The notes under the pieces were generated by a model. The model made no database searches. It saw only the letters and a program-made list of their open reading frames with translations, and was not told where the DNA came from. A DNA stretch of 25,955 nt, taken from a virus. Positions 6,110-20,396 of the stretch are shown here, piece by piece (positions within the stretch are counted from its first letter, which is position 1; each line of letters starts with the position of its first letter). The stretch spans positions 1-25,955 of the IMG/VR virus record IMGVR_UViG_3300032722_000105. The stretch is one strand, 5' to 3'. The translations under genes were made by a program, and so were the position numbers.

Positions 6110-6118
6110 GGAAAAGTG

Positions 6119-6655
6119 ATGAAAACTTTTAATGAATTAAGACTTATTAATGTCAATGAACATACAGAGCGCAAAGGTAAATTTACTTATCTTTCTTGGA
6201 CCTGGGCTGTAGACCAGCTTTTACAAAATGATCCTACAGCTACCTGGAAGTTTGATGAGCCAGTTTATTTTGCTGAAACTTTAATGGTTTTTTGTTCAGT
6301 AACAGCTTTTGGCAAAACTATGACTTGCCAGATGCCAGTTTTAAACAATATGAACAAAGCCATTCAAAACCCTGATGCCTTTGCTGTAAATACCGCTATG
6401 CAAAGGGCTTTGGTAAAAACAATCAGTCTATTCGGAATTGGCCTTTATATCTATGCTGGTGAGGATTTGCCTGATGAAGAAACCCCTGATTTGGCTGTAG
6501 AGGCTGATAAATGGGTTGAGGCTATTTCTAATTGTGATTCTATTGAATTGCTTAAAGATGTCTACAAAAATGCCTATAACACCTTGTCAAAAGACAAATC
6601 AGCAGTTGCTAAGATTTCAGCAGCCAAAGATGCTAAGAAAGCTGAACTATCATGA
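6119..6655 (+). CDS. DUF1071-type single-strand annealing protein
   Basis: A 178-residue protein from the ATG at 6119, with AAGGAAAA upstream; a GTG precedes it. The N-terminal half carries FNELRLINVNEHTERKGKFT, YLSWTWAVDQLL and a basic-aromatic core. QRALVKTISLFGIGLYIYAGED forms the characteristic end of the DUF1071 domain. DUF1071 belongs to the Rad52-like single-strand annealing proteins of phages, which pair complementary strands made by a 5'-3' exonuclease. The YqaJ exonuclease gene two small genes downstream completes such a pair. The C-terminal 50 residues are a helical tail of the sort that contacts SSB or exonuclease. Confidence 0.83.
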   Translation: MKTFNELRLINVNEHTERKGKFTYLSWTWAVDQLLQNDPTATWKFDEPVYFAETLMVFCSVTAFGKTMTCQMPVLNNMNKAIQNPDAFAVNTAMQRALVKTISLFGIGLYIYAGEDLPDEETPDLAVEADKWVEAISNCDSIELLKDVYKNAYNTLSKDKSAVAKISAAKDAKKAELS

Positions 6656-6828: not shown

Positions 6829-6923
6829 CCTGGGCCGACAAAGTAGCCATAGCAACATTAGTGATTGCATCTGTCATTTTGATGGGTGTAATCAGACTAG
6901 CAATTAGATTGGGAGGGGTATGA
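6825..6923 (+). CDS. Tiny single-span membrane peptide
   Basis: A 32-residue frame starting MTWADKVAIATLVIASVILM with one transmembrane helix followed by arginines (RLAIRLGGV), predicting an inner-membrane peptide with a cytoplasmic basic end. It has a GGAG ribosome site and overlaps both neighbours by 4 bases (ATGA). Its 3' end carries the ribosome site (GGGAGGGG) of the exonuclease gene, so its translation may gate exonuclease synthesis. The function is unknown. Confidence 0.62.
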   Translation: MTWADKVAIATLVIASVILMGVIRLAIRLGGV

Positions 6924-7558
6924 CTACCTTTACAACAGAAGATAGAATAGCTGTCGAACAAGGCACTCCAGAGTGGCATCAGATGCGCCTAGGCAAGGTT
7001 ACAGCTTCTAGAGTAGCCGACATATTGGCTAAGACTAAAACAGGGCCATCTGCTTCTAGACAGAACTACCTTATTGAATTAGCCTTACAGCGCACTACAG
7101 GCATCATTCAAGAATCTTACTCCAACTCTGCAATGGAATGGGGTACTCAAACTGAACCTCAAGCAAGGGTAGCTTATGAAGTCAATACCAATAATTTTGT
7201 CGATCAAGTCGCTTTCATTGACCATCCTAGTATTAAGTGGTTTGGTTGCAGTCCTGATGGGCTTGTTTCTGATAGGGGTCTTGTGGAGATTAAATGTCCT
7301 AATAGCGCAACTCATTGGGAGTATTTCAAAGCTAAAGAACCACCTAAAAAATACTTTATCCAGATGCAAGCTCAAATAGCTGTAACTAATAGGGATTGGT
7401 GCGATTTTGTAAGTTTTGACCCCAGGATGCCTGACCGCAGCCAGTTGCTAGTTGTTCGAGTTAATAGGGATGACCATTTTATTTTAGACATGGAAAGAGA
7501 AGTTAAGCAGTTTTTAGATGAAGTAGAAGCAGAAGTTCAACAAATGAAAGGGATGTAA
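6920..7558 (+). CDS. YqaJ-family viral exonuclease (lambda Exo type)
   Basis: A 212-residue protein with the complete YqaJ core: GTPEWHQMRLGKVTASRVAD (15-34), AMEWGTQTEPQAR (71-83), FGCSPDGLV with Asp113, LVEIKCP with Glu123 and Lys125, and an IQMQAQI helix (147-153). These are the PD-(D/E)XK catalytic residues of the lambda exonuclease family, which degrade one strand 5'-3' to leave 3' single-stranded tails. Length is normal. Together with the DUF1071 protein upstream and the SSB-like protein 3 bases downstream it forms a phage recombination module, used in genome-end processing, concatemer formation or repair. Confidence 0.9.
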   Translation: MTTFTTEDRIAVEQGTPEWHQMRLGKVTASRVADILAKTKTGPSASRQNYLIELALQRTTGIIQESYSNSAMEWGTQTEPQARVAYEVNTNNFVDQVAFIDHPSIKWFGCSPDGLVSDRGLVEIKCPNSATHWEYFKAKEPPKKYFIQMQAQIAVTNRDWCDFVSFDPRMPDRSQLLVVRVNRDDHFILDMEREVKQFLDEVEAEVQQMKGM

Positions 7559-7560
7559 AA

Positions 7561-7815
7561 ATGGCTATTAAATGGTATGTAAAGGCTCCAGTTTCTGAAT
7601 ACACAGCTCAGGATGGAACAAATAAGAAAAGATATGCTACAGTTGGGATTGTTACAGAAACTAAAAAAGGGGATTTGATGCTTAAGCTTGAAATGTTTCC
7701 TTTATTGGGATTAAAAGAAGGTGCTTTTTGGGCCTATTTAAATGTTCCAGAAGAAAAATCAGAACAAGCTGAAAAATCATCAAATTCTATAGAAGATGAC
7801 AAAATCCCTTTCTAA
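7561..7815 (+). CDS. Small SSB-like single-stranded DNA binding protein
   Basis: The 84-residue protein has a beta-rich N-terminal part (IKWYVKAPVSEY, KRYATVGIVTET, LMLKLEMFPLLG, WAYLNVP) compatible with a minimal OB-type barrel. A polar linker leads to the terminal EDDKIPF, which closely resembles the acidic DDDIPF tip that bacterial SSB uses to bind partner proteins. It sits 3 bases after the exonuclease gene. An SSB function is inferred from the tail, the strands and the context; the barrel is shorter than canonical SSB. The last 20 bases overlap the start of the HNH gene. Confidence 0.62.
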   Translation: MAIKWYVKAPVSEYTAQDGTNKKRYATVGIVTETKKGDLMLKLEMFPLLGLKEGAFWAYLNVPEEKSEQAEKSSNSIEDDKIPF

Positions 7816-8284
7816 AGAATTATTGCTTGAATTATTCCAATACAAAGATGGCAATTTGTATTGGAAAAAATTAATAAGCAAAAAAACTGTTATTGGAAAA
7901 TTGGCTGGAAGCAAAACTAATGATTATAAAAGAGTTGCTTTTTATGGCAAAGAATACTATTTGCATAGAATTATTTTTATGATGCACAAAGGATATATGC
8001 CTAAGTTTATAGACCATATAGATAACAATAAATCCAATAACAAAATAGAAAATTTAAGGGAAGCAAGCCATTCTCAAAATCAATGGAACCATAAATTAAG
8101 ATCTGACAATAAATCAGGAATTAAAGGGGTTTCTTGGGCTAATCGAGATAAATCTTGGAAAGCTCAATGTTATGTAAATGGTAAACAGTATCAACTTGGA
8201 TATTTTAAAGATTTAAATGAAGCAAAAAATGTTGTTATGGAATTTAGACAAGAAAATCATAAGGAGTTTATGAATCATGGGTAA
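7796..8284 (+). CDS. HNH homing endonuclease with AP2 domain (copy 1)
   Basis: A 162-residue protein. Residues 1-100 hold the HNH_3-type nuclease core: YYLHRIIFMMH (54-64), IDHIDNN with His74 as the general base, and IENLREA and SQNQWN with the conserved Asn residues. Residues 105-158 form an AP2-type DNA-binding domain (NKSGIKGVSW, WKAQCYVNGK, LGYFKDLNEAKN). This is the composition of free-standing phage homing endonucleases of the I-HmuI relatives. Codon use is markedly more AT-rich than in the flanking genes. It starts 20 bases inside the SSB-like gene and ends in NHG, where the next gene begins. It is a paralogue of the gene at 9135-9629. Confidence 0.88.
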   Translation: MTKSLSKELLLELFQYKDGNLYWKKLISKKTVIGKLAGSKTNDYKRVAFYGKEYYLHRIIFMMHKGYMPKFIDHIDNNKSNNKIENLREASHSQNQWNHKLRSDNKSGIKGVSWANRDKSWKAQCYVNGKQYQLGYFKDLNEAKNVVMEFRQENHKEFMNHG

Positions 8285-8417: not shown

Positions 8418-8567
8418 ATGGGAGCAATAGTTGGAATACTTTGTGGATTTGCTTGGCTAACTCACATATTTTTTTGCTTTAGTCATGCAGCCTGGGGTTT
8501 TTTAATTGCAGGTGCTTTATTTTTTCCAATCGGAATCCTTCATGGATTCTATCTTTGGGCTCAATAG
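8418..8567 (+). CDS. Two-span small membrane protein
   Basis: A 49-residue protein with two hydrophobic segments (IVGILCGFAWLTHIFFCF and AWGFLIAGALFFPIGILHGF). AAGGAG lies 8 bases upstream, and the downstream gene's AGGAGG ribosome site overlaps its stop. The GAWGFLIAGALFFP...HG pattern is familiar from small phage inner-membrane proteins without known function. Holin activity is unlikely because the lysis genes with their own holin lie in the late operon. Probably expressed early. Confidence 0.66.
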   Translation: MGAIVGILCGFAWLTHIFFCFSHAAWGFLIAGALFFPIGILHGFYLWAQ

Positions 8568-8575
8568 GAGGCATT

Positions 8576-8779
8576 ATGAATGAACACATATGGACTGCTG
8601 CTGGAACTGACATTACAATTCGCTGGAGAATGAATGGCTGGACACCGCCATCAGAGATTCAGGGTTATAGGGATAAATGGCGATACTATCAAAATCTTCC
8701 TTTGCGCCAGCTTGACGATGCAGCTAAAGAGCAATATGAACAGGTCTTGCGAAAGGCCAAAGTAATGAGGATTAAATAA
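8576..8779 (+). CDS. Hypothetical phage protein
   Basis: The gene encodes 67 residues from the ATG at 8576, chosen because AGGAGG (8566-8571) is ideally placed; a frame from 8555 would begin inside the upstream gene without a ribosome site. The sequence has WRMNGWTPPSE, KWRYYQNLPLRQLDDAAKEQ and YEQVLRKAKVMRIK, a helical, basic protein of a type common in proteobacterial phages, where P-S-E..........W..YQNLPLR is conserved. No function is known to me. Its stop overlaps the next start. Confidence 0.7.
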   Translation: MNEHIWTAAGTDITIRWRMNGWTPPSEIQGYRDKWRYYQNLPLRQLDDAAKEQYEQVLRKAKVMRIK

Positions 8780-9069
8780 TGGCAACTAAAAAATTAACTG
8801 TAAAAGAACCAGCTATAAAAGAGAAATCTGGCAAGGTTATTGTGGCTAAGTCAAAAGCTTATAGCCATGATGAACTAAAAAAGATAGCTGGAAAAGAAGC
8901 AAAAGGCGCAAAGCATGAATTTGAGCTTTCTAATGGTCGGATTGTCACTCGCAAAGTTGCAGCTAAGATTGCAGAAAAAGCTGGTGAAGTTCCTAAATCT
9001 GTTGGGAAAAAACTACACTCTCATGATTTGCGAAGAAGTGCTGGAATTAAAAAAATTAAGTTAAAATAA
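8779..9069 (+). CDS. Lysine-rich basic protein
   Basis: A 96-residue protein with about one quarter Lys or Arg. The middle segment (HEFELSNGRIVTRKVAAKIAEKAG) could form a small beta-hairpin plus helix, flanked by basic tails. It resembles small basic phage proteins that coat DNA or bind RNA, but I recognise no named domain. The ATG overlaps the preceding stop (TAATG). A hairpin follows the stop, so this gene may end a transcript segment before the second HNH gene. Confidence 0.66.
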   Translation: MATKKLTVKEPAIKEKSGKVIVAKSKAYSHDELKKIAGKEAKGAKHEFELSNGRIVTRKVAAKIAEKAGEVPKSVGKKLHSHDLRRSAGIKKIKLK

Positions 9070-9075
9070 ACAAAA

Positions 9076-9103
9076 CCCCTAAAGGTCTGACAACCAATAG
9101 GGG
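9076..9103 (+). terminator. Hairpin downstream of the Lys-rich gene
   Basis: CCCCTA (9076-9081) pairs with TAGGGG (9098-9103) across a 16-base loop, just after the stop of the Lys-rich gene. There is no strong T-run after it (CTTCT), so it may be a weak terminator or an RNA-processing or attenuation element. The rest of the 65-base gap holds the ribosome site of the next gene. Confidence 0.3.
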
Positions 9104-9134
9104 CTTCTAACCACCACAATTTATAGGAATTGCT

Positions 9135-9629
9135 ATGGCTGATAAAATTTTAACTCAAGAATATTTACATGAAATTTTTTTATACGAAAATGGCAATTTG
9201 TATTGGAAAATTAATTCTTCTAAAAATGTAAAAGCTGGTTCAATTTGCAAACAAGTTGATTTAAGAGGATACAAAAAAGTAACGCTTAATAGAAAAAGTT
9301 ATTCTCAAAGTAGAGTAATTTTTATGATGCATTATGGATTTTTATCAAAAGAAATTGATCATATAAATTGTATTAAAACAGATAATAGAATAGAAAACTT
9401 ACGACCAGCATCAACTGTTGAAAATGGACAAAATAAAAAAATTCAAAAAAATAATAAATCAGGCTTTAAAAATGTGCATTGGTGCAAAACTAATAAAAAA
9501 TGGATTGTTACTATTAAAGTGAATAAAAAAACAATTTTTGTTGGGGGTTTTAAAGATGTTGAGTTAGCTGATTTAGTTGCACAAGAAGCTAGAATCAAAT
9601 ATCACAAAAGATTTGCCAATCATGGATGA
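9135..9629 (+). CDS. HNH homing endonuclease with AP2 domain (copy 2)
   Basis: A 164-residue paralogue of the protein at 7796-8284, with the same order: NGNLYWK near the start, VIFMMHYGF, EIDHINC with the catalytic-type Asp-His, RIENLRPAS and VENGQN, then an AP2-type domain (NKSGFKNVHW, WIVTIKVNKKT, VGGFKDVELAD), and an identical terminal NHG. One difference is that the H-R-I-I-F-M-M-H segment of copy 1 has Ser in place of its first His, so activity may differ. Base composition is very AT-rich compared with its neighbours, a mark of a mobile gene. AGGAATT lies before the ATG. The downstream membrane peptide starts within its last codons. Confidence 0.87.
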   Translation: MADKILTQEYLHEIFLYENGNLYWKINSSKNVKAGSICKQVDLRGYKKVTLNRKSYSQSRVIFMMHYGFLSKEIDHINCIKTDNRIENLRPASTVENGQNKKIQKNNKSGFKNVHWCKTNKKWIVTIKVNKKTIFVGGFKDVELADLVAQEARIKYHKRFANHG

Positions 9630-9714
9630 TATAGCCATGATTTTCGGTTTAACTGTCTTGATTGGCTTTGTCATTGTAATTTTTTATTTAATCGGAAAAG
9701 ACCATGACAAATGA
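9622..9714 (+). CDS. Tiny single-span membrane peptide
   Basis: A 30-residue frame (MDDIAMIFGLTVLIGFVIVI, then FYLIGKDHDK) with one long transmembrane helix and a charged end. Its ATG is made by the last codons of HNH copy 2, and its stop lies 8 bases inside the following gene. No clear ribosome site precedes it, so it would rely on re-initiation. The function is unknown; similar coupling to the exported peptide after HNH copy 1 makes it more credible. Confidence 0.52.
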   Translation: MDDIAMIFGLTVLIGFVIVIFYLIGKDHDK

Positions 9715-9892
9715 AGGAATCCCTTTTGGGGGTAATTTAAAAGTTCCAGATAATGATTGTGAAGAAACTTTCTTTGCTTTATATCCTGATTTCTTTTATG
9801 AAGGTTCTACAGCTTTAACTTTGTGGACTCAGGGCTGGCAAGCAGCTTTAGACCATGCAGAGTATAAAAAGCCTGTAATACAACTAATTTGA
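9704..9892 (+). CDS. Hypothetical small acidic protein
   Basis: A 62-residue protein, acidic and aromatic (DNDCEETFFALYPDFFYEG, LTLWTQGWQAALDHAEY). It looks like a small soluble helical protein, with a W..GWQAA..HA.Y pattern that I associate with short phage proteins of unknown role. It overlaps the membrane peptide by 11 bases and the PPK2 start by 4 bases, so it is translationally coupled to PPK2 and would be made with it. Confidence 0.62.
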   Translation: MTNEGIPFGGNLKVPDNDCEETFFALYPDFFYEGSTALTLWTQGWQAALDHAEYKKPVIQLI

Positions 9893-10656
9893 GCTCAATA
9901 GACCAATCGGAAGATTCTCCAAGGAATCTTATTGGCCTCAAGGAATATGAGGCCAAGAAGTATTTATTACAAATTGAGTTATTAAAATGGCAAAATTTTG
10001 TCAAAGATCAAAAAACTCAGCATATTATTATTTTTGAAGGTAGAGATGCAGCAGGCAAGGGTGGAAGTATTAAAAGATTTATGGAGCACCTTAATCCACG
10101 AGGAGCAAGAGTGGTTGCTTTGGAAAAGCCAACTGAGCTTGAAAAGCTTGAATGGTACTGGACCAGGCATCTTAGAGAATTTCCTAGAGCAGGCGAGATT
10201 ACATTTTGGGATAGAAGCTGGTACAACAGGGCTGGAGTAGAGCCTGTAATGGGGTTTTGCACTCCAGACCAAACAAGGCAATTTTTTAAAGAGTGCGCCA
10301 AATTAGAAAAAATTTGGATTGAAGCTGATATTCAGATTATTAAGTTTTGGTATTCAGTAAGCAAAAAAGAGCAAGCCAGAAGGTTTGAGGATAGAGAGCT
10401 TCATCCTTTAAAGCTTGGCAAGTTAAGCCCTATAGATGTTGCTTCACAAACCCTTTGGGATGAATACACCAAGGCCAAAAATGAGATGTTTAAGCAAACT
10501 AATATTTCAGAATGTCCTTGGGTGCAAGTAAAATCTGATTGCAAAAGGTCTGCAAGATTGGCAAGTATGCAGTATGTTCTTTTGAAAAATAATTACCCAG
10601 ACCGCAATTTGGAAAACATCGGAGCTATTAACTCCGACATTCTTAAGCTAGTTTAA
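9889..10656 (+). CDS. ppk2: Polyphosphate kinase 2 (PPK2 family)
   Basis: A 255-residue protein covering the full single-domain PPK2 fold. Walker A is FEGRDAAGKGG (49-59), followed by HLNPRGARVVALEKPTELE (67-85), Walker B DRSWYNRAGVE (108-118), VMGFCTP, IKFWYSVSKKEQARRFEDR (150-169) and a lid-like LKLGKLSPID (174-183). PPK2 enzymes move the terminal phosphate of polyphosphate onto ADP, GDP or NMPs, or work in reverse. The strand-P-loop-lid set appears intact, but the usual Trp of the WKLSP lid motif is Gly here. The start is a TTG overlapping the upstream stop by 4 bases; the first in-frame ATG lies after Walker A, so the TTG is needed. Last gene of the early operon. In a phage it may refill NTPs from host polyphosphate; that role is inference. 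Confidence 0.93.
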   Translation: MSSIDQSEDSPRNLIGLKEYEAKKYLLQIELLKWQNFVKDQKTQHIIIFEGRDAAGKGGSIKRFMEHLNPRGARVVALEKPTELEKLEWYWTRHLREFPRAGEITFWDRSWYNRAGVEPVMGFCTPDQTRQFFKECAKLEKIWIEADIQIIKFWYSVSKKEQARRFEDRELHPLKLGKLSPIDVASQTLWDEYTKAKNEMFKQTNISECPWVQVKSDCKRSARLASMQYVLLKNNYPDRNLENIGAINSDILKLV

Positions 10657-11255
10657 GCCCCTAGAACATCCATTGCTTTATGTATTCTGTCAATTCTATC
10701 TTGCAAACCTAAAAGACCGCCATTTATTCTTTTTGTCATGGCTTCCCAGTTTTCATCATCAGCCAATAAATTTAACTGCTTGCGATTCCAAAACCATCCT
10801 GCACTCATACAAGCCCATTCAGGCTCTAAGAGAAGCTCAGGATGCTGTATTAATGGCTGACCTATAGCATCGCCACATACTTGATAGTTTGACCGCCCTG
10901 TAAGCTGTATTAAGCCTCTGCCATGAAAATTCCATCCATCACCATCTTCTGTATTTCCAAGGTCTGCTCTACCGCCATAAACCTTGTTTGCGATAGCTTG
11001 AGGATTGTTATTATATTTTTCAGCAGTATTGGCATCTGGGAATCTAGAAGGCCAAACTCGCATTAAAGTTCCAGCAGAATAATGAAGATTTTCTTCAAGA
11101 GTCTTAAAGTTTGCTGATTCATGACCGCATTGACCTATGAAGGCTGCTTGTCTAACTGGAGTATTAATTCCATATTTGGCAAAAGTATCTTCTAAAGGTT
11201 TAAGCCATTTAGTATCAATTCCTAATGCTTGAAGTTGTTCATTATTTAATGGCAT
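10653..11255 (-). CDS. Endolysin, glycoside hydrolase family 19 type
   Basis: A 200-residue protein. RQAAFIGQCGHESANFKTLE holds Glu46 as the likely acid catalyst, with Glu54/Glu55 close by. GRGLIQLTGRSNY (112-124) is the substrate-cleft motif of GH19 chitinase-like lysozymes. GWFWNRKQLNLLAD and TKRINGG complete the fold. GH19 endolysins cut the glycan of peptidoglycan after holin release. It has no signal peptide, as expected for a holin-dependent enzyme. The start overlaps the end of the HNH gene by 14 bases. Its stop overlaps the convergent PPK2 stop by 4 bases, with no terminator between them. Confidence 0.92.
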   Translation of the reverse strand: MPLNNEQLQALGIDTKWLKPLEDTFAKYGINTPVRQAAFIGQCGHESANFKTLEENLHYSAGTLMRVWPSRFPDANTAEKYNNNPQAIANKVYGGRADLGNTEDGDGWNFHGRGLIQLTGRSNYQVCGDAIGQPLIQHPELLLEPEWACMSAGWFWNRKQLNLLADDENWEAMTKRINGGLLGLQDRIDRIHKAMDVLGA

Positions 11256-11685
11256 ATTTATTGTGTTTTGATCTATTATAAAATGCTGGAATAGCTTTTA
11301 AATTGCTTGGAACATGAAGGCCTGATACAAAATCACCTTGTAAAGGTATTACATGATCAACTTCCCATTTTTGACCAGTTAATTTGCTTAAAATATTAGC
11401 AAGTTTGTATTCATTTTTAATTCTTTCATGGTCAATATCATTAAGCCATAAAGGAGTTCTATATTTTTGAGCTGCTTTTCTAGTGCGATTTTTTGCATTT
11501 ACTAAAGCAGTATTTTTTAATCGCCATTCTTTGTTTATTTTGGCAATTTTTTCAGAGTTGTTTTTTCTGTATTCAGAATTAAAAGCAATTCTTTTTTCTT
11601 TAGTTTTTTGGTAATACTCTTTTTTATAAGCAAGGACTTTTTCCTTGTTTGCATAATACCAAGATAAAGAAGATTCTTTACTCAT
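11242..11685 (-). CDS. HNH endonuclease inserted in lysis cassette
   Basis: A 147-residue protein. The N-terminal 75 residues are a basic helical repeat region (YYANKEK, YKKEYYQKTKEKR, YRKNNSEK, NKEWRLKN) typical of DNA-contacting segments of mobile phage HNH enzymes. The nuclease core follows: WEVDHVIPLQGD (Asp110, His111), GLHVPSNLKAI (His124, Asn128) and YNRSKHN. It is not closely similar to the two AP2-type HNH genes in this window. It lies between the i-spanin gene, overlapped by 4 bases, and the endolysin gene, overlapped by 14 bases, so it interrupts lysis functions without breaking them. Homing activity is inference. Confidence 0.85.
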   Translation of the reverse strand: MSKESSLSWYYANKEKVLAYKKEYYQKTKEKRIAFNSEYRKNNSEKIAKINKEWRLKNTALVNAKNRTRKAAQKYRTPLWLNDIDHERIKNEYKLANILSKLTGQKWEVDHVIPLQGDFVSGLHVPSNLKAIPAFYNRSKHNKYAIK

Positions 11686-18010: not shown

Positions 18011-18246
18011 ATATTGTAGTAAGGAACCTTAAAAGGCTTGCCATTAACAGTAATATTAATAAATCCTACTGGATTTGTAGGCAAAGTAGATGAGCCTTTT
18101 GTAGCTGTAGGAGATGCTGAAAAATTAAGCAAATTAAGAAAATACTGTTGCCATGCCCTTGTTGGCAGTTTATTGCCATCATCCAATAAAGGGGTTACAG
18201 GATAGGGATTATTTTGAGTTGTTCCCCAAATTTGATTAACAGCCAT
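18007..18246 (-). CDS. Small structural protein
   Basis: 79 residues with LPTRAWQQYFLNLLNF in the middle and LPTNPVGFINITVNGKPFKV near the end, closing with PYYNI. Proteins ending in NPVGFI...NG...K.PYY are frequent in phage tail modules just after the gp10-like gene. The function is unknown, probably a virion or assembly component. It overlaps both neighbours by 1-4 bases. Confidence 0.62.
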   Translation of the reverse strand: MAVNQIWGTTQNNPYPVTPLLDDGNKLPTRAWQQYFLNLLNFSASPTATKGSSTLPTNPVGFINITVNGKPFKVPYYNI

Positions 18247-20396
18247 TAGTTTTCTCCTTCAGAAGCTTTAAGATTAGCTGAAACAATAACCGCTTTAATA
18301 GGGTCAGTAACAACTACCTCAAATATTCTATCTCTAGACCAACCCAATCTGCGCCAAATAATCCTGTTTTGGTATTTACCAATACTACCAATAGTTTGCC
18401 AATGTTCATTTGACCATGTAGAGCCACCATCATTTGACCATCTAAGCATAGCTTGAGGATTTGCGCCTACTGTTTCTCCATTTAAAGGAATAGTTGTTCC
18501 TGTTAAACCTACACCTGGCTGGAATTGAATCTGAAATTCATCAAAATACTGTCTTTGAAGGTCAGTAACCAAATGAGGAGCTCTGCGAACCCTGCGAATG
18601 GTATCGCCATTATCTGTATAGTTTTGCGAATCTAATTGATAGATTTGACCATTTTCCCAATCGCCTACCAAAAAGATGTTTTGAAATAAGCATCCACAAT
18701 TTGACCTATGGCGATGATAGGTATTACTGTTATCTACCCAAAGCCATTTATGCCAAAGCTGAGTTGTAAAATCATAAGCCCAAGTTAAATCAAGAGTAGG
18801 GAATGAAATTACATAGACTTCATGGCCTTCTAGCTGATAAGTATAGGCAATAGCATCACCTACATATTGGTTTACAAGAGTATTTTCTACAGCATGAGTG
18901 GATATTCTTGTTGGGAAATAGCCATTCATCATGACAATTTCAGACTGTCCCCTAATATTTTGAGCTAAATAAGCAAAAGAATTACCTACCCTTGCTACTG
19001 AAAAAGGAGCAGAAATACCATGTTGACTAGAACTTCCAGGAATTCTTTGGAAAGCAAATGGAAAAGTTCCTACATCTGACCAAACTTCAGAAGTAGTTTC
19101 TCCAAGCAAATAAACTTGTCCATGGTCAGATATTAAAGATACAAGGTTATCAGGTGCTGTAAATTTAGAAGCAAAAGATAAACTATAAGTAATCGGACTC
19201 AAAATATTAGATGCAGCCCATTTTTGAGTATTTGGGTCATTGTAAATAAAGTAATTATCAATAACATCAACAATAGTACCGCCAGTAAATGCGCCATCAG
19301 TAGAAGGAATGACACTAAATCTAAGTGCATACATTGATTCTGAGGCAACTGTTTGAGTTTTGTTAATTACATAATTACCAGTTCCACCTGTACCGCTACC
19401 AAAAGTTAAGGTAAGAGTTAAGCCAGTACCAGCTCCACTTGTAGAAGTAGAAGCTGGATTTATAGGATTAGAGGTATATTGACCAGCATTAGTAACTGTC
19501 AATGTAGCAACTGCTCCAGCAACCCCAATACTAGCTACTGTGTAAGTTGCAGGAGTAGTTCCATAAACACCGCCAACAACTGTAATTGTGTCATTTACAG
19601 CATATCCAGTTCCTGCTGTTGCTATGGCTGTGGATAATACTGTTCCGCTTCCCAAAGCAGTAATAATGGTTTGATTAGTTACTCCTGTTCCTACAATAGT
19701 CATTCCAGGAGATAAAGTATCTGTCCCTGAAATTGTTGTAACAGTTAGAGTAGTTCCTGAAATTGATGATGTAATCTCTGCTGCTACATCACTAGTAAAC
19801 ATCTGAGTTGAAGCTACAGATTGAGTTAAATTTACTGTATAAGTACCAATTCCACCAGTTGTACCACCTGTTTGAGCTGTAATAATGGTATTTTGCAATA
19901 CTCCAGCACCAAATAGCTGACTAGCAATAGTAATTCCAGTACCTAATACATTAATTCCTGTAACAGTTAAAGTAGTTCCTGAAATTGAACCTTGGAAAAT
20001 GCAATCATCTGCATCTTCTTTAATAAACCAGCTATATCTATTTGCACCATCAGTAATATAGACATTTATGCCATTATCGGCAATTCCAACATAACCTGAA
20101 TTTGTATTAAGCTGACCAATGATTCTAGGTGTAAATGTTGCATCAACACAATAAACAAATTGACCGCATACAGCTACAAAATCCTGACCGCCTGACAAAG
20201 TTTTCATTCCTCTTACTTCAGCTTGTGGAGTAAGGGCTAAAACAGAAGTAAGCCCTGGAGTTGGATATAAAGCAACAACACCTCTAGAGCCTTGTGGCTT
20301 AGTAGGGTCCACTTCAGGGAACCAGTTTATGCACTCCTGAGCATCTTGATAAATAGAAGGGGCTTCATAAGAAGCTCCAACAAAGCCAAAATCCAT
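18246..20396 (-). CDS. gp10-like tail stabilization protein with nested domain insertions
   Basis: A 716-residue protein. Residues 1-133 (GASYEAPSIYQDAQECINWF, LYPTPGLT, RGMKTLSGGQDFVAVCGQ) and 358-716 (STDGAFTGGTIVDVIDNYFI, GQVYLLGETTSEVW, GHEVYVISFPT, WAYDFTTQLWHKW, LRWSNDGGSTWSNE) match the P22 gp10-type packaged-DNA stabilization protein, a beta-propeller-like tail hub that seals the head. Between them lie two copies of a beta-rich domain with the SISGTTLTVT motif (about 135-202 and 208-357). The second copy is itself split by a different domain (about 253-335). With the insert removed the length would be about 490, close to gp10. The inserts probably face outward as decoration. Confidence 0.8.
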   Translation of the reverse strand: MDFGFVGASYEAPSIYQDAQECINWFPEVDPTKPQGSRGVVALYPTPGLTSVLALTPQAEVRGMKTLSGGQDFVAVCGQFVYCVDATFTPRIIGQLNTNSGYVGIADNGINVYITDGANRYSWFIKEDADDCIFQGSISGTTLTVTGINVLGTGITIASQLFGAGVLQNTIITAQTGGTTGGIGTYTVNLTQSVASTQMFTSDVAAEITSSISGTTLTVTTISGTDTLSPGMTIVGTGVTNQTIITALGSGTVLSTAIATAGTGYAVNDTITVVGGVYGTTPATYTVASIGVAGAVATLTVTNAGQYTSNPINPASTSTSGAGTGLTLTLTFGSGTGGTGNYVINKTQTVASESMYALRFSVIPSTDGAFTGGTIVDVIDNYFIYNDPNTQKWAASNILSPITYSLSFASKFTAPDNLVSLISDHGQVYLLGETTSEVWSDVGTFPFAFQRIPGSSSQHGISAPFSVARVGNSFAYLAQNIRGQSEIVMMNGYFPTRISTHAVENTLVNQYVGDAIAYTYQLEGHEVYVISFPTLDLTWAYDFTTQLWHKWLWVDNSNTYHRHRSNCGCLFQNIFLVGDWENGQIYQLDSQNYTDNGDTIRRVRRAPHLVTDLQRQYFDEFQIQFQPGVGLTGTTIPLNGETVGANPQAMLRWSNDGGSTWSNEHWQTIGSIGKYQNRIIWRRLGWSRDRIFEVVVTDPIKAVIVSANLKASEGEN
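19326..19775 (-). repeat. Domain A copy 2, interrupted by domain B
   Basis: Residues 208-357 of the gp10-like protein. The first half of domain A (SISGTTLTVTTISG ... IITALGSGT) resumes after about 83 residues as GGTGNYVINKTQTVAS. The insert (about 19398-19631), with AGTGYAVNDTITVVGG, ATLTVTNAGQYTSNP and a STSTSGAGTGLTLTL end, is a second repeat type that I associate with phage fibre and hub proteins. GSGT stands at both junctions. Confidence 0.65.
19791..19994 (-). repeat. Domain A copy 1
   Basis: Residues 135-202 of the gp10-like protein: GSISGTTLTVTG, IITAQTGGT and IGTYTVNLTQSVAST. A 29-base stretch at its start (19960-19988) repeats at 19738-19766 in copy 2 with one mismatch, so the two copies arose by recent duplication or exchange. 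Confidence 0.65.

Follow-up and report, generated by a model that had tools for sequence, protein, structure and literature searches.

A class I polyphosphate kinase 2 gene of phages that seems to be exchanged as a cassette

The window, by which we mean the whole stretch of 25,955 bases analysed here, a virus record described as a freshwater phage, encodes a protein that is, by all the sequence and fold tests made, a complete class I polyphosphate kinase 2 (PPK2). Judged from sequence comparison, this is an old, selected phage gene and not a recent host fragment, and within the phage lineage of the window it seems to be an exchangeable cassette that moves between phages. The interpretation that we favour, with moderate confidence, is that a working class I enzyme turns host polyphosphate and nucleoside diphosphates into nucleoside triphosphates (NTPs) for the phage, and that its gene is an accessory cassette of the phage gene pool.

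Gene neighborhood of the phage PPK2

The original prediction, made from the bare sequence, placed the gene at the end of an early operon, behind recombination genes and joined to a gene for a 62-residue protein. It is indeed the last gene of a rightward run on the plus strand, 'early' describing its position only; genes for an annealing protein and an exonuclease lie upstream on the same strand, and the junction with the 62-residue gene is an overlap of stop and start codons. The genes in and around this operon are the following:

6116..6655, plus strand: Sak-type single-strand annealing protein, upstream of PPK2
6920..7558, plus strand: YqaJ-type exonuclease, upstream of PPK2
7796-8284: second HNH endonuclease, in or around the PPK2 operon
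8779..9069, plus strand: s96, a lysine-rich protein of 96 amino acids (28% K+R, pI 10.3), its family remotely similar to phrog_839 (unknown function)
9135..9629, plus strand: HNH endonuclease, an insertion in this phage that separates s96 from s62
9704..9892, plus strand: s62, a 62-amino-acid gene without a family found, its TGA stop sharing 4 bases (TTGA) with the start of PPK2; found in phages of the window lineage whether or not they carry PPK2
9889..10656, plus strand: class I PPK2, 255 amino acids, TTG start, no internal stop
10653..11255, minus strand: convergent GH19-like endolysin that bounds the PPK2 slot and overlaps the PPK2 stop by 4 bases
11242-11685: open reading frame next to the endolysin, present or absent in sister phages

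TTG is the only sensible start of PPK2 because the first in-frame ATG is codon 65, behind the Walker A motif; moreover, relatives with a GTG, TTG or ATG start at this position share the N-terminus (MSxIDQxExxPRNLI). To judge from the overlap, translation of PPK2 is probably coupled to that of s62. A like overlap (GTGA), between the start of PPK2 and the stop of the gene before it, occurs in the viral loci L001-L007 and L019, and in L003 the overlapping gene encodes a family A DNA polymerase (Pfam). In the window, PPK2 is flanked by small genes and a gene for lysis instead of replication genes. s62 was detected in all 63 window-lineage loci and, among the first 27 viral loci, in L020 and L021 only. 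A promoter scan of positions 8500-11300 returned 12 sites where chance would give 9.9, and no site exceeded 9 of 12 matches; a scan around PPK2 found no terminator-like site, and there are no tRNA genes in the window.

Identity, fold and active site of the protein

A complete PPK2 core had been claimed for this open reading frame, and all the comparisons agree with that claim. The protein matches the Pfam PPK2 family (PF03976) over residues 18-237 with an E-value of 2.4e-80 (269.8 bits, cut-off 22.3) and exceeds, by a narrow margin, the cut-off of the NCBIfam equivalog TIGR03707 for class I PPK2 (309.6 bits, cut-off 301.8). It contains the Walker A motif (FEGRDAAGKGG), the Walker B motif (DRSWYNRAG) and the lid region, and aligns without gaps to Francisella PPK2 over residues 17-241. 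The closest solved structures by sequence are the Francisella PPK2 entries, and a Foldseek search with the AlphaFold model of the window protein (19 aligned sequences, pLDDT 89.1) identified as the best match the Francisella structure 5llb (TM 0.92, rmsd 1.0 Å).

Residues D53, K57, D108, R109, N113 and R169 of the window protein correspond to D62, K66, D117, R118, N122 and R178 of the Francisella enzyme (Francisella numbering minus 9), D53 being the Walker A aspartate, and all six columns are invariant in an alignment of 19 sequences, 15 viral and 4 bacterial (alignment A4). Alanine mutants of K66, R118 and R178 of Francisella PPK2, residues of polyphosphate binding and activity, have dramatically reduced activity (PMC8776046). 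An asparagine directly after Walker B (RSxYN) is the mark of class I PPK2s, which phosphorylate ADP and GDP from polyphosphate (PMC8776046); in the window protein, this asparagine is N113, within DRSWYN.

The window protein shares with the class I bacterial PPK2 of Francisella (PDB 5llb/5ll0/4yeg) the fold, the Walker A and B motifs, the class I asparagine and the polyphosphate-binding lysine and arginines, at 48-53% identity in structural alignments; the corresponding identity to Sinorhizobium meliloti SMc02148 (PDB 3czq/6dzg) is 43-45%. Unlike the bacterial class I enzymes, it belongs to a virus-only clade on a long stem and is encoded in a phage operon.

Phylogeny, selection and the phage origin of the gene

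PPK2 is rare among catalogued phages, as had been suspected when it was called a non-standard phage gene: only 15 of 50,697 records match PPK2, all with less than 60% identity to the window protein, which itself has no PHROG family at E <= 0.001. Relatives are readily found in IMG/VR, where a first scan yielded 27 PPK2 loci, of which 19 share 71-82% identity with the window protein, and a scan with an alignment query yielded 92 relatives. All these scans rest on short patterns, and the best 80 matches were kept of 189 for s96, 92 for viral PPK2, 83 for bacterial PPK2 and 544 for the polymerase.

For tree construction, PPK2 matches covering fewer than 170 model positions and those beyond two per locus were excluded, and the rows were collapsed at 95% identity (bacterial ones further at 82%), which reduced their number from 234 to 156 and then to 91. 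In the resulting quick tree of 60 viral and 31 bacterial rows, the window protein falls into a virus-only clade of 21 rows (clade A) with a stem of 0.81, positioned near beta- and alphaproteobacterial PPK2. In a careful tree of 30 rows, clade A is supported at 100/100; the quick-tree group of the window protein, L016 and others (95) is without support there, and the place of the window protein inside clade A is without supported resolution. The phage-encoded nature of PPK2, as originally predicted, is thus borne out by this clade and by the IMG/VR relatives. The best bacterial relative is 56% identical to the window protein in the pattern-limited scan (best 80 of 83) and 58% identical among 300 genomes of one order, 242 of which match at E <= 1e-20.

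The dN/dS ratios are in the range of 0.05 to 0.12 for the 14 of 91 gene pairs that are not saturated at synonymous sites (14 clade A genes). Only one usable pair includes the window gene, with a dS of 2.9, near saturation, so the constraint is measured mainly in the relatives.

PPK2 is found inside bona fide phage genomes: the window encodes the head-closure protein Hc3, Sak and an endolysin, and the contig carrying L003 has terminase, portal and tail fibre genes. The order s62, PPK2, endolysin recurs in 8 other contigs (9 with the window), which argues that the contig is not chimeric at this point. We attach a negligible probability to the alternative that the gene is contamination, a chimera or a decaying host fragment. 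Some deposited records do resemble host fragments, in particular that of Moraxella phage Mcat6, in which PPK2 lies in an unannotated stretch and groups with bacteria. Against this stand, for the present locus, the recurrent gene order, the intact active site, dN/dS of 0.12 or less, the 100/100 clade and the identity of at most 58% to the bacterial sequences found; on these grounds, the alternative is refuted at this locus. Accordingly, the profile search of viral genomes and the tree, which had been proposed as a check, did not reveal a recent host fragment devoid of phage relatives, nor did the gene order in the nine contigs point to a chimera at PPK2.

Several candidates were set aside, three of them among the closest of the 15 matching phage records. 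The PPK2 of Mcat6 (57% identity) was rejected as a phage relative given its grouping with bacterial PPK2 and its location in an unannotated stretch; this bacterial-type open reading frame (KR093630.1, L264:4659-5765) is possibly host DNA that was deposited along with a prophage. MT835589 and MT835605, two records from the gut whose GC content is 73-74% over the stretches read, fall among bacterial sequences, outside both virus-only groups; the IMG/VR loci L023-L025 are likewise outside both groups in the quick tree.

As a separate observation, Hc3 of the window (18246-20396, minus strand, 716 amino acids) contains an apparent long inserted Gly/Thr-rich repeat stretch at approximately residues 130-335. 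No phage record covers 80% of the protein in one place, and 14 of the 20 matches listed begin at residues 360-370. Among 399 genomes from the order to which a Burkholderiaceae MAG belongs, 2 gave matches to Hc3, at 37-58% identity.

A second virus-only group in large phages

The second virus-only group in the tree consists of 33 rows, four of them long-branched (SH-aLRT 92, not starred), and its phage records reach 735 kb. These PPK2s (LR745206, LR756501, LR756502 and IMG/VR contigs) are related to class I and are 41-48% identical to the window protein for most of the rows listed. They differ from it in forming a separate group, in a long N-terminal extension in the loci read and in their neighbors; no s96 was found in the large-phage loci examined. 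The loci of this group are L139-L179, L265, L268 and L269. In six of the seven loci read, the PPK2 frames are 381-417 amino acids long, and in the seventh, L165, PPK2 lies inside a frame of 1,941 amino acids; a conserved gene of about 300 amino acids is the first or second upstream neighbor of PPK2 in 17 of 28 loci.

Exchange of PPK2 in the window lineage

The window lineage was set by shared genes, and the PPK2 slot was compared on contigs spanning s96 to the endolysin; after removal by hand of the duplicates L057, L128, L130, L131, L132 and L136, the 63 slot loci correspond to 57 contigs. The slot contains PPK2 in 9 contigs (including the window), a gene of about 60 amino acids (sA) in 23, a 57-amino-acid gene (sB) in 23, and neither small gene nor PPK2 in 2 (L091 and L093). 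When near-copies are collapsed at 95% identity over 80% of the length, 34 groups remain, 8 with PPK2 and 26 without. The loci from the s96 scan alone give PPK2 in 6 of 54 contigs, the scan selecting on s96 with a query alignment that comes from PPK2 carriers.

The annealing protein, exonuclease, s96 and endolysin (partial) of L020 are 75-91% identical to those of the window, and the PPK2s of these two contigs are 60% identical, compared to 80% identity between the window PPK2 and that of L001, an unrelated phage. Forcing the eight slot PPK2s into a single clade carries a cost of 54 log units, and the AU test rejects this arrangement (p 0.0005). The set (window, L016, L020, L076, L078, L082, L083 and L133) was defined by gene context and tested after the quick tree had shown the split; L016, whose contig starts inside PPK2, was assigned to the lineage by downstream genes only. 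In the careful tree, six slot PPK2s other than that of the window group with L129, a polymerase-carrying phage (100/99). Given that the slot PPK2s do not form one clade and that the window PPK2 is closer to that of L001 than to that of L020, PPK2 has been exchanged in this slot, or has entered it, on more than one occasion. HNH genes occur at varying points around the slot (9135-9629 in the window, and related open reading frames in L031, L058, L073 and L081), and these endonucleases could drive the exchange.

Replication genes and s96 beside PPK2 in other phages

Of the 18 clade A loci examined beyond the window lineage, 15 have one or more genes for a DNA polymerase of family A, a helicase, a primase or a PD-(D/E)XK nuclease near PPK2, on either side, and in the other 3 none of the replication genes sought was found near it; the annotation of these loci was made in part by profile and otherwise by similarity to those so annotated.

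Among 27 clade A contigs that do not belong to the window lineage, 24 (11 of 14 after collapse at 95%) have s96 immediately 3' of PPK2, the contigs without it in this position being L125, L137 and L138. This adjacency suggested an obligate partner of PPK2, a candidate that was rejected because s96 is present without PPK2 both in the window lineage (48 of 57 contigs) and among relatives of the polymerase, where s96 was found in 4 of the best 80 of 544 (L314-L317) and PPK2 in none of these 80 in the stretch examined. The polymerase scan omits known PPK2 carriers such as L001 and yields no frequency. Throughout, gene absences refer to the stretch examined for each locus. In L014 (3636-4674) and L015 (886-1927), the PPK2s are 93% identical and the s96 proteins that follow them only 53% identical; hence, s96 is exchangeable while its adjacency to PPK2 persists.

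Across 32 aligned sequences (alignments A1 and A3), the s96 family shows a KKLHSxxLR motif together with invariant H30 and R58. At E <= 0.1, 8 of 16 members match part of the phrog_839 model (best E-value 8.9e-11), the window copy being unmatched. Pfam matched neither the window copy nor, at an E-value better than 0.07, any of the 16 members, and a sequence search of the PDB with s96 returned no match up to E 5; the best PDB fold match of the predicted structure (pLDDT 85.7) has an E-value of 1.9.

The small genes that alternate with PPK2

sA and sB fill the PPK2 slot in window-lineage phages that lack PPK2, and s62, sA (2 copies) and sB have no match in PHROG better than E 0.07; the comparisons of small genes were scored without composition correction. 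In the window lineage, sA and s96 are separate genes. sA also occurs directly 5' of s96 in the polymerase-carrying phages L314-L316 (L314:6880-7365), L094 (3824-4300) and L095, where the two form one open frame from an ATG; in L314-L316, its position is that of PPK2 in relatives with an 86% identical polymerase, and in L317, s96 directly follows the polymerase. No two of sA, sB and PPK2 co-occur in the 35, 24 and 119 loci, respectively, in which they were found, duplicates included. Inside the window-lineage slot, mutual exclusion of PPK2, sA and sB is trivial because one slot holds one gene; weight rests only on the recurrence of the alternation beside s96 in other phages. It is conceivable, though in our estimate doubtful, that PPK2, sA and sB are interchangeable modules that work with s96 as a shared basic adaptor, the small proteins achieving what PPK2 does by targeting an enzyme with which the host metabolizes polyphosphate or nucleotides. 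Were this so, the phages would possess a polyphosphate/NTP module with alternative effectors.

Possible roles of the phage PPK2

The role in NTP supply that we favor builds on the protein family, the class signature, the intact active site, the virus-only clade, purifying selection within that clade and the exchange of the slot; we infer enzymatic activity, its direction and timing, use of host polyphosphate and benefit to the phage. PPK2 would be made from the last slot of the rightward recombination operon of the phage and, as expected of its class, would move phosphate from host polyphosphate to nucleoside diphosphates (ADP and GDP); the resulting NTPs would provide phosphorus and energy for phage replication and expression, and the supply would fall at the time when replication and transcription are most demanding. 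The location of PPK2 near replication genes in other phages fits this role; that PPK2 is optional, being absent from 48 of the 57 sister contigs, counts against it, as do its surroundings in the window and the three clade A loci where the replication genes sought did not turn up.

An alternative is that PPK2 removes host polyphosphate, thereby blunting the stress responses that depend on it, or restores NTPs in the face of nucleotide-depleting defenses, in which case NTPs are the means and not the purpose. An accessory, swapped gene in a slot shared with alternative small genes would resemble the habit of counter-defense or takeover genes. However, PADLOC gave no match at E <= 0.01 for any of the five proteins tried, including PPK2, s96 and s62, PPK2 lies near replication genes in other phages, and a literature search linking polyphosphate or PPK with anti-phage activity gave nothing on the subject, judged by title. 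We regard a counter-defense function as possible but unlikely.

More improbable still is that PPK2 is cargo that mainly serves the lysogenized host and not the infection cycle. The window encodes a YdaS/Cro-like regulator, so that a temperate life is possible, and PPK2 is optional in the lineage; conversely, the gene before PPK2 in the recombination operon runs into its start, the relatives lie near replication genes in other phages, and a scan of the proteins from part of the window's genes turned up no integrase. As for a promoter of its own, the scan described above neither shows nor excludes one for PPK2, the 12 sites found being set against the 9.9 expected.

The direction of the reaction cannot be read from the sequence because some class I PPK2s strongly favor polyphosphate synthesis (PMC8776046). 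If the phage enzyme shared this preference, it would run in reverse, making polyphosphate from ATP or GTP and storing phosphate during infection, and viral ppk1 and ppk2 genes from sediment have indeed been proposed to augment polyphosphate accumulation (PMC13188868). On the other side, Pseudomonas aeruginosa PPK2A prefers phosphorylation of nucleoside diphosphates 75-fold (PMC8776046), and storage of phosphate in a lytic cycle would bring no evident benefit. We therefore consider synthesis very improbable and retain NTP supply as the preferred role.

Relation to earlier reports and significance

Virus-encoded polyphosphate kinases in activated sludge are reportedly the subject of Li et al. 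(2025, Water Res 268:122678), going by its title, and overlap with the present findings is possible. The existence of virus-encoded ppk2 as such is already in print: ppk1 and ppk2 are reported on active sediment viruses in PMC13188868, which cites two earlier reports, Li et al. being one of them, and ppk2 is among the active genes of lytic viruses in PMC9636769. The main text of PMC10987575, on phosphorus genes of soil phages, contains no word beginning with ppk. What these auxiliary metabolic genes have in common with the present gene is the occurrence of PPK2 on viral contigs. PMC13188868 and PMC9636769 list ppk2 in environmental viromes, and in their accessible parts virus-only clades, slot exchange and an s96/sA neighborhood were not found; as far as the literature consulted reaches, these are new details.

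Polyphosphate can hold much phosphorus and phosphate energy in reserve, and phage DNA needs much phosphorus. That a PPK2 lineage confined to viruses exists and is exchanged suggests that phages profit from tapping this reserve. This idea is testable with one small enzyme, and nature offers the comparisons, namely a single phage slot that may contain PPK2, sA or sB or none of them.
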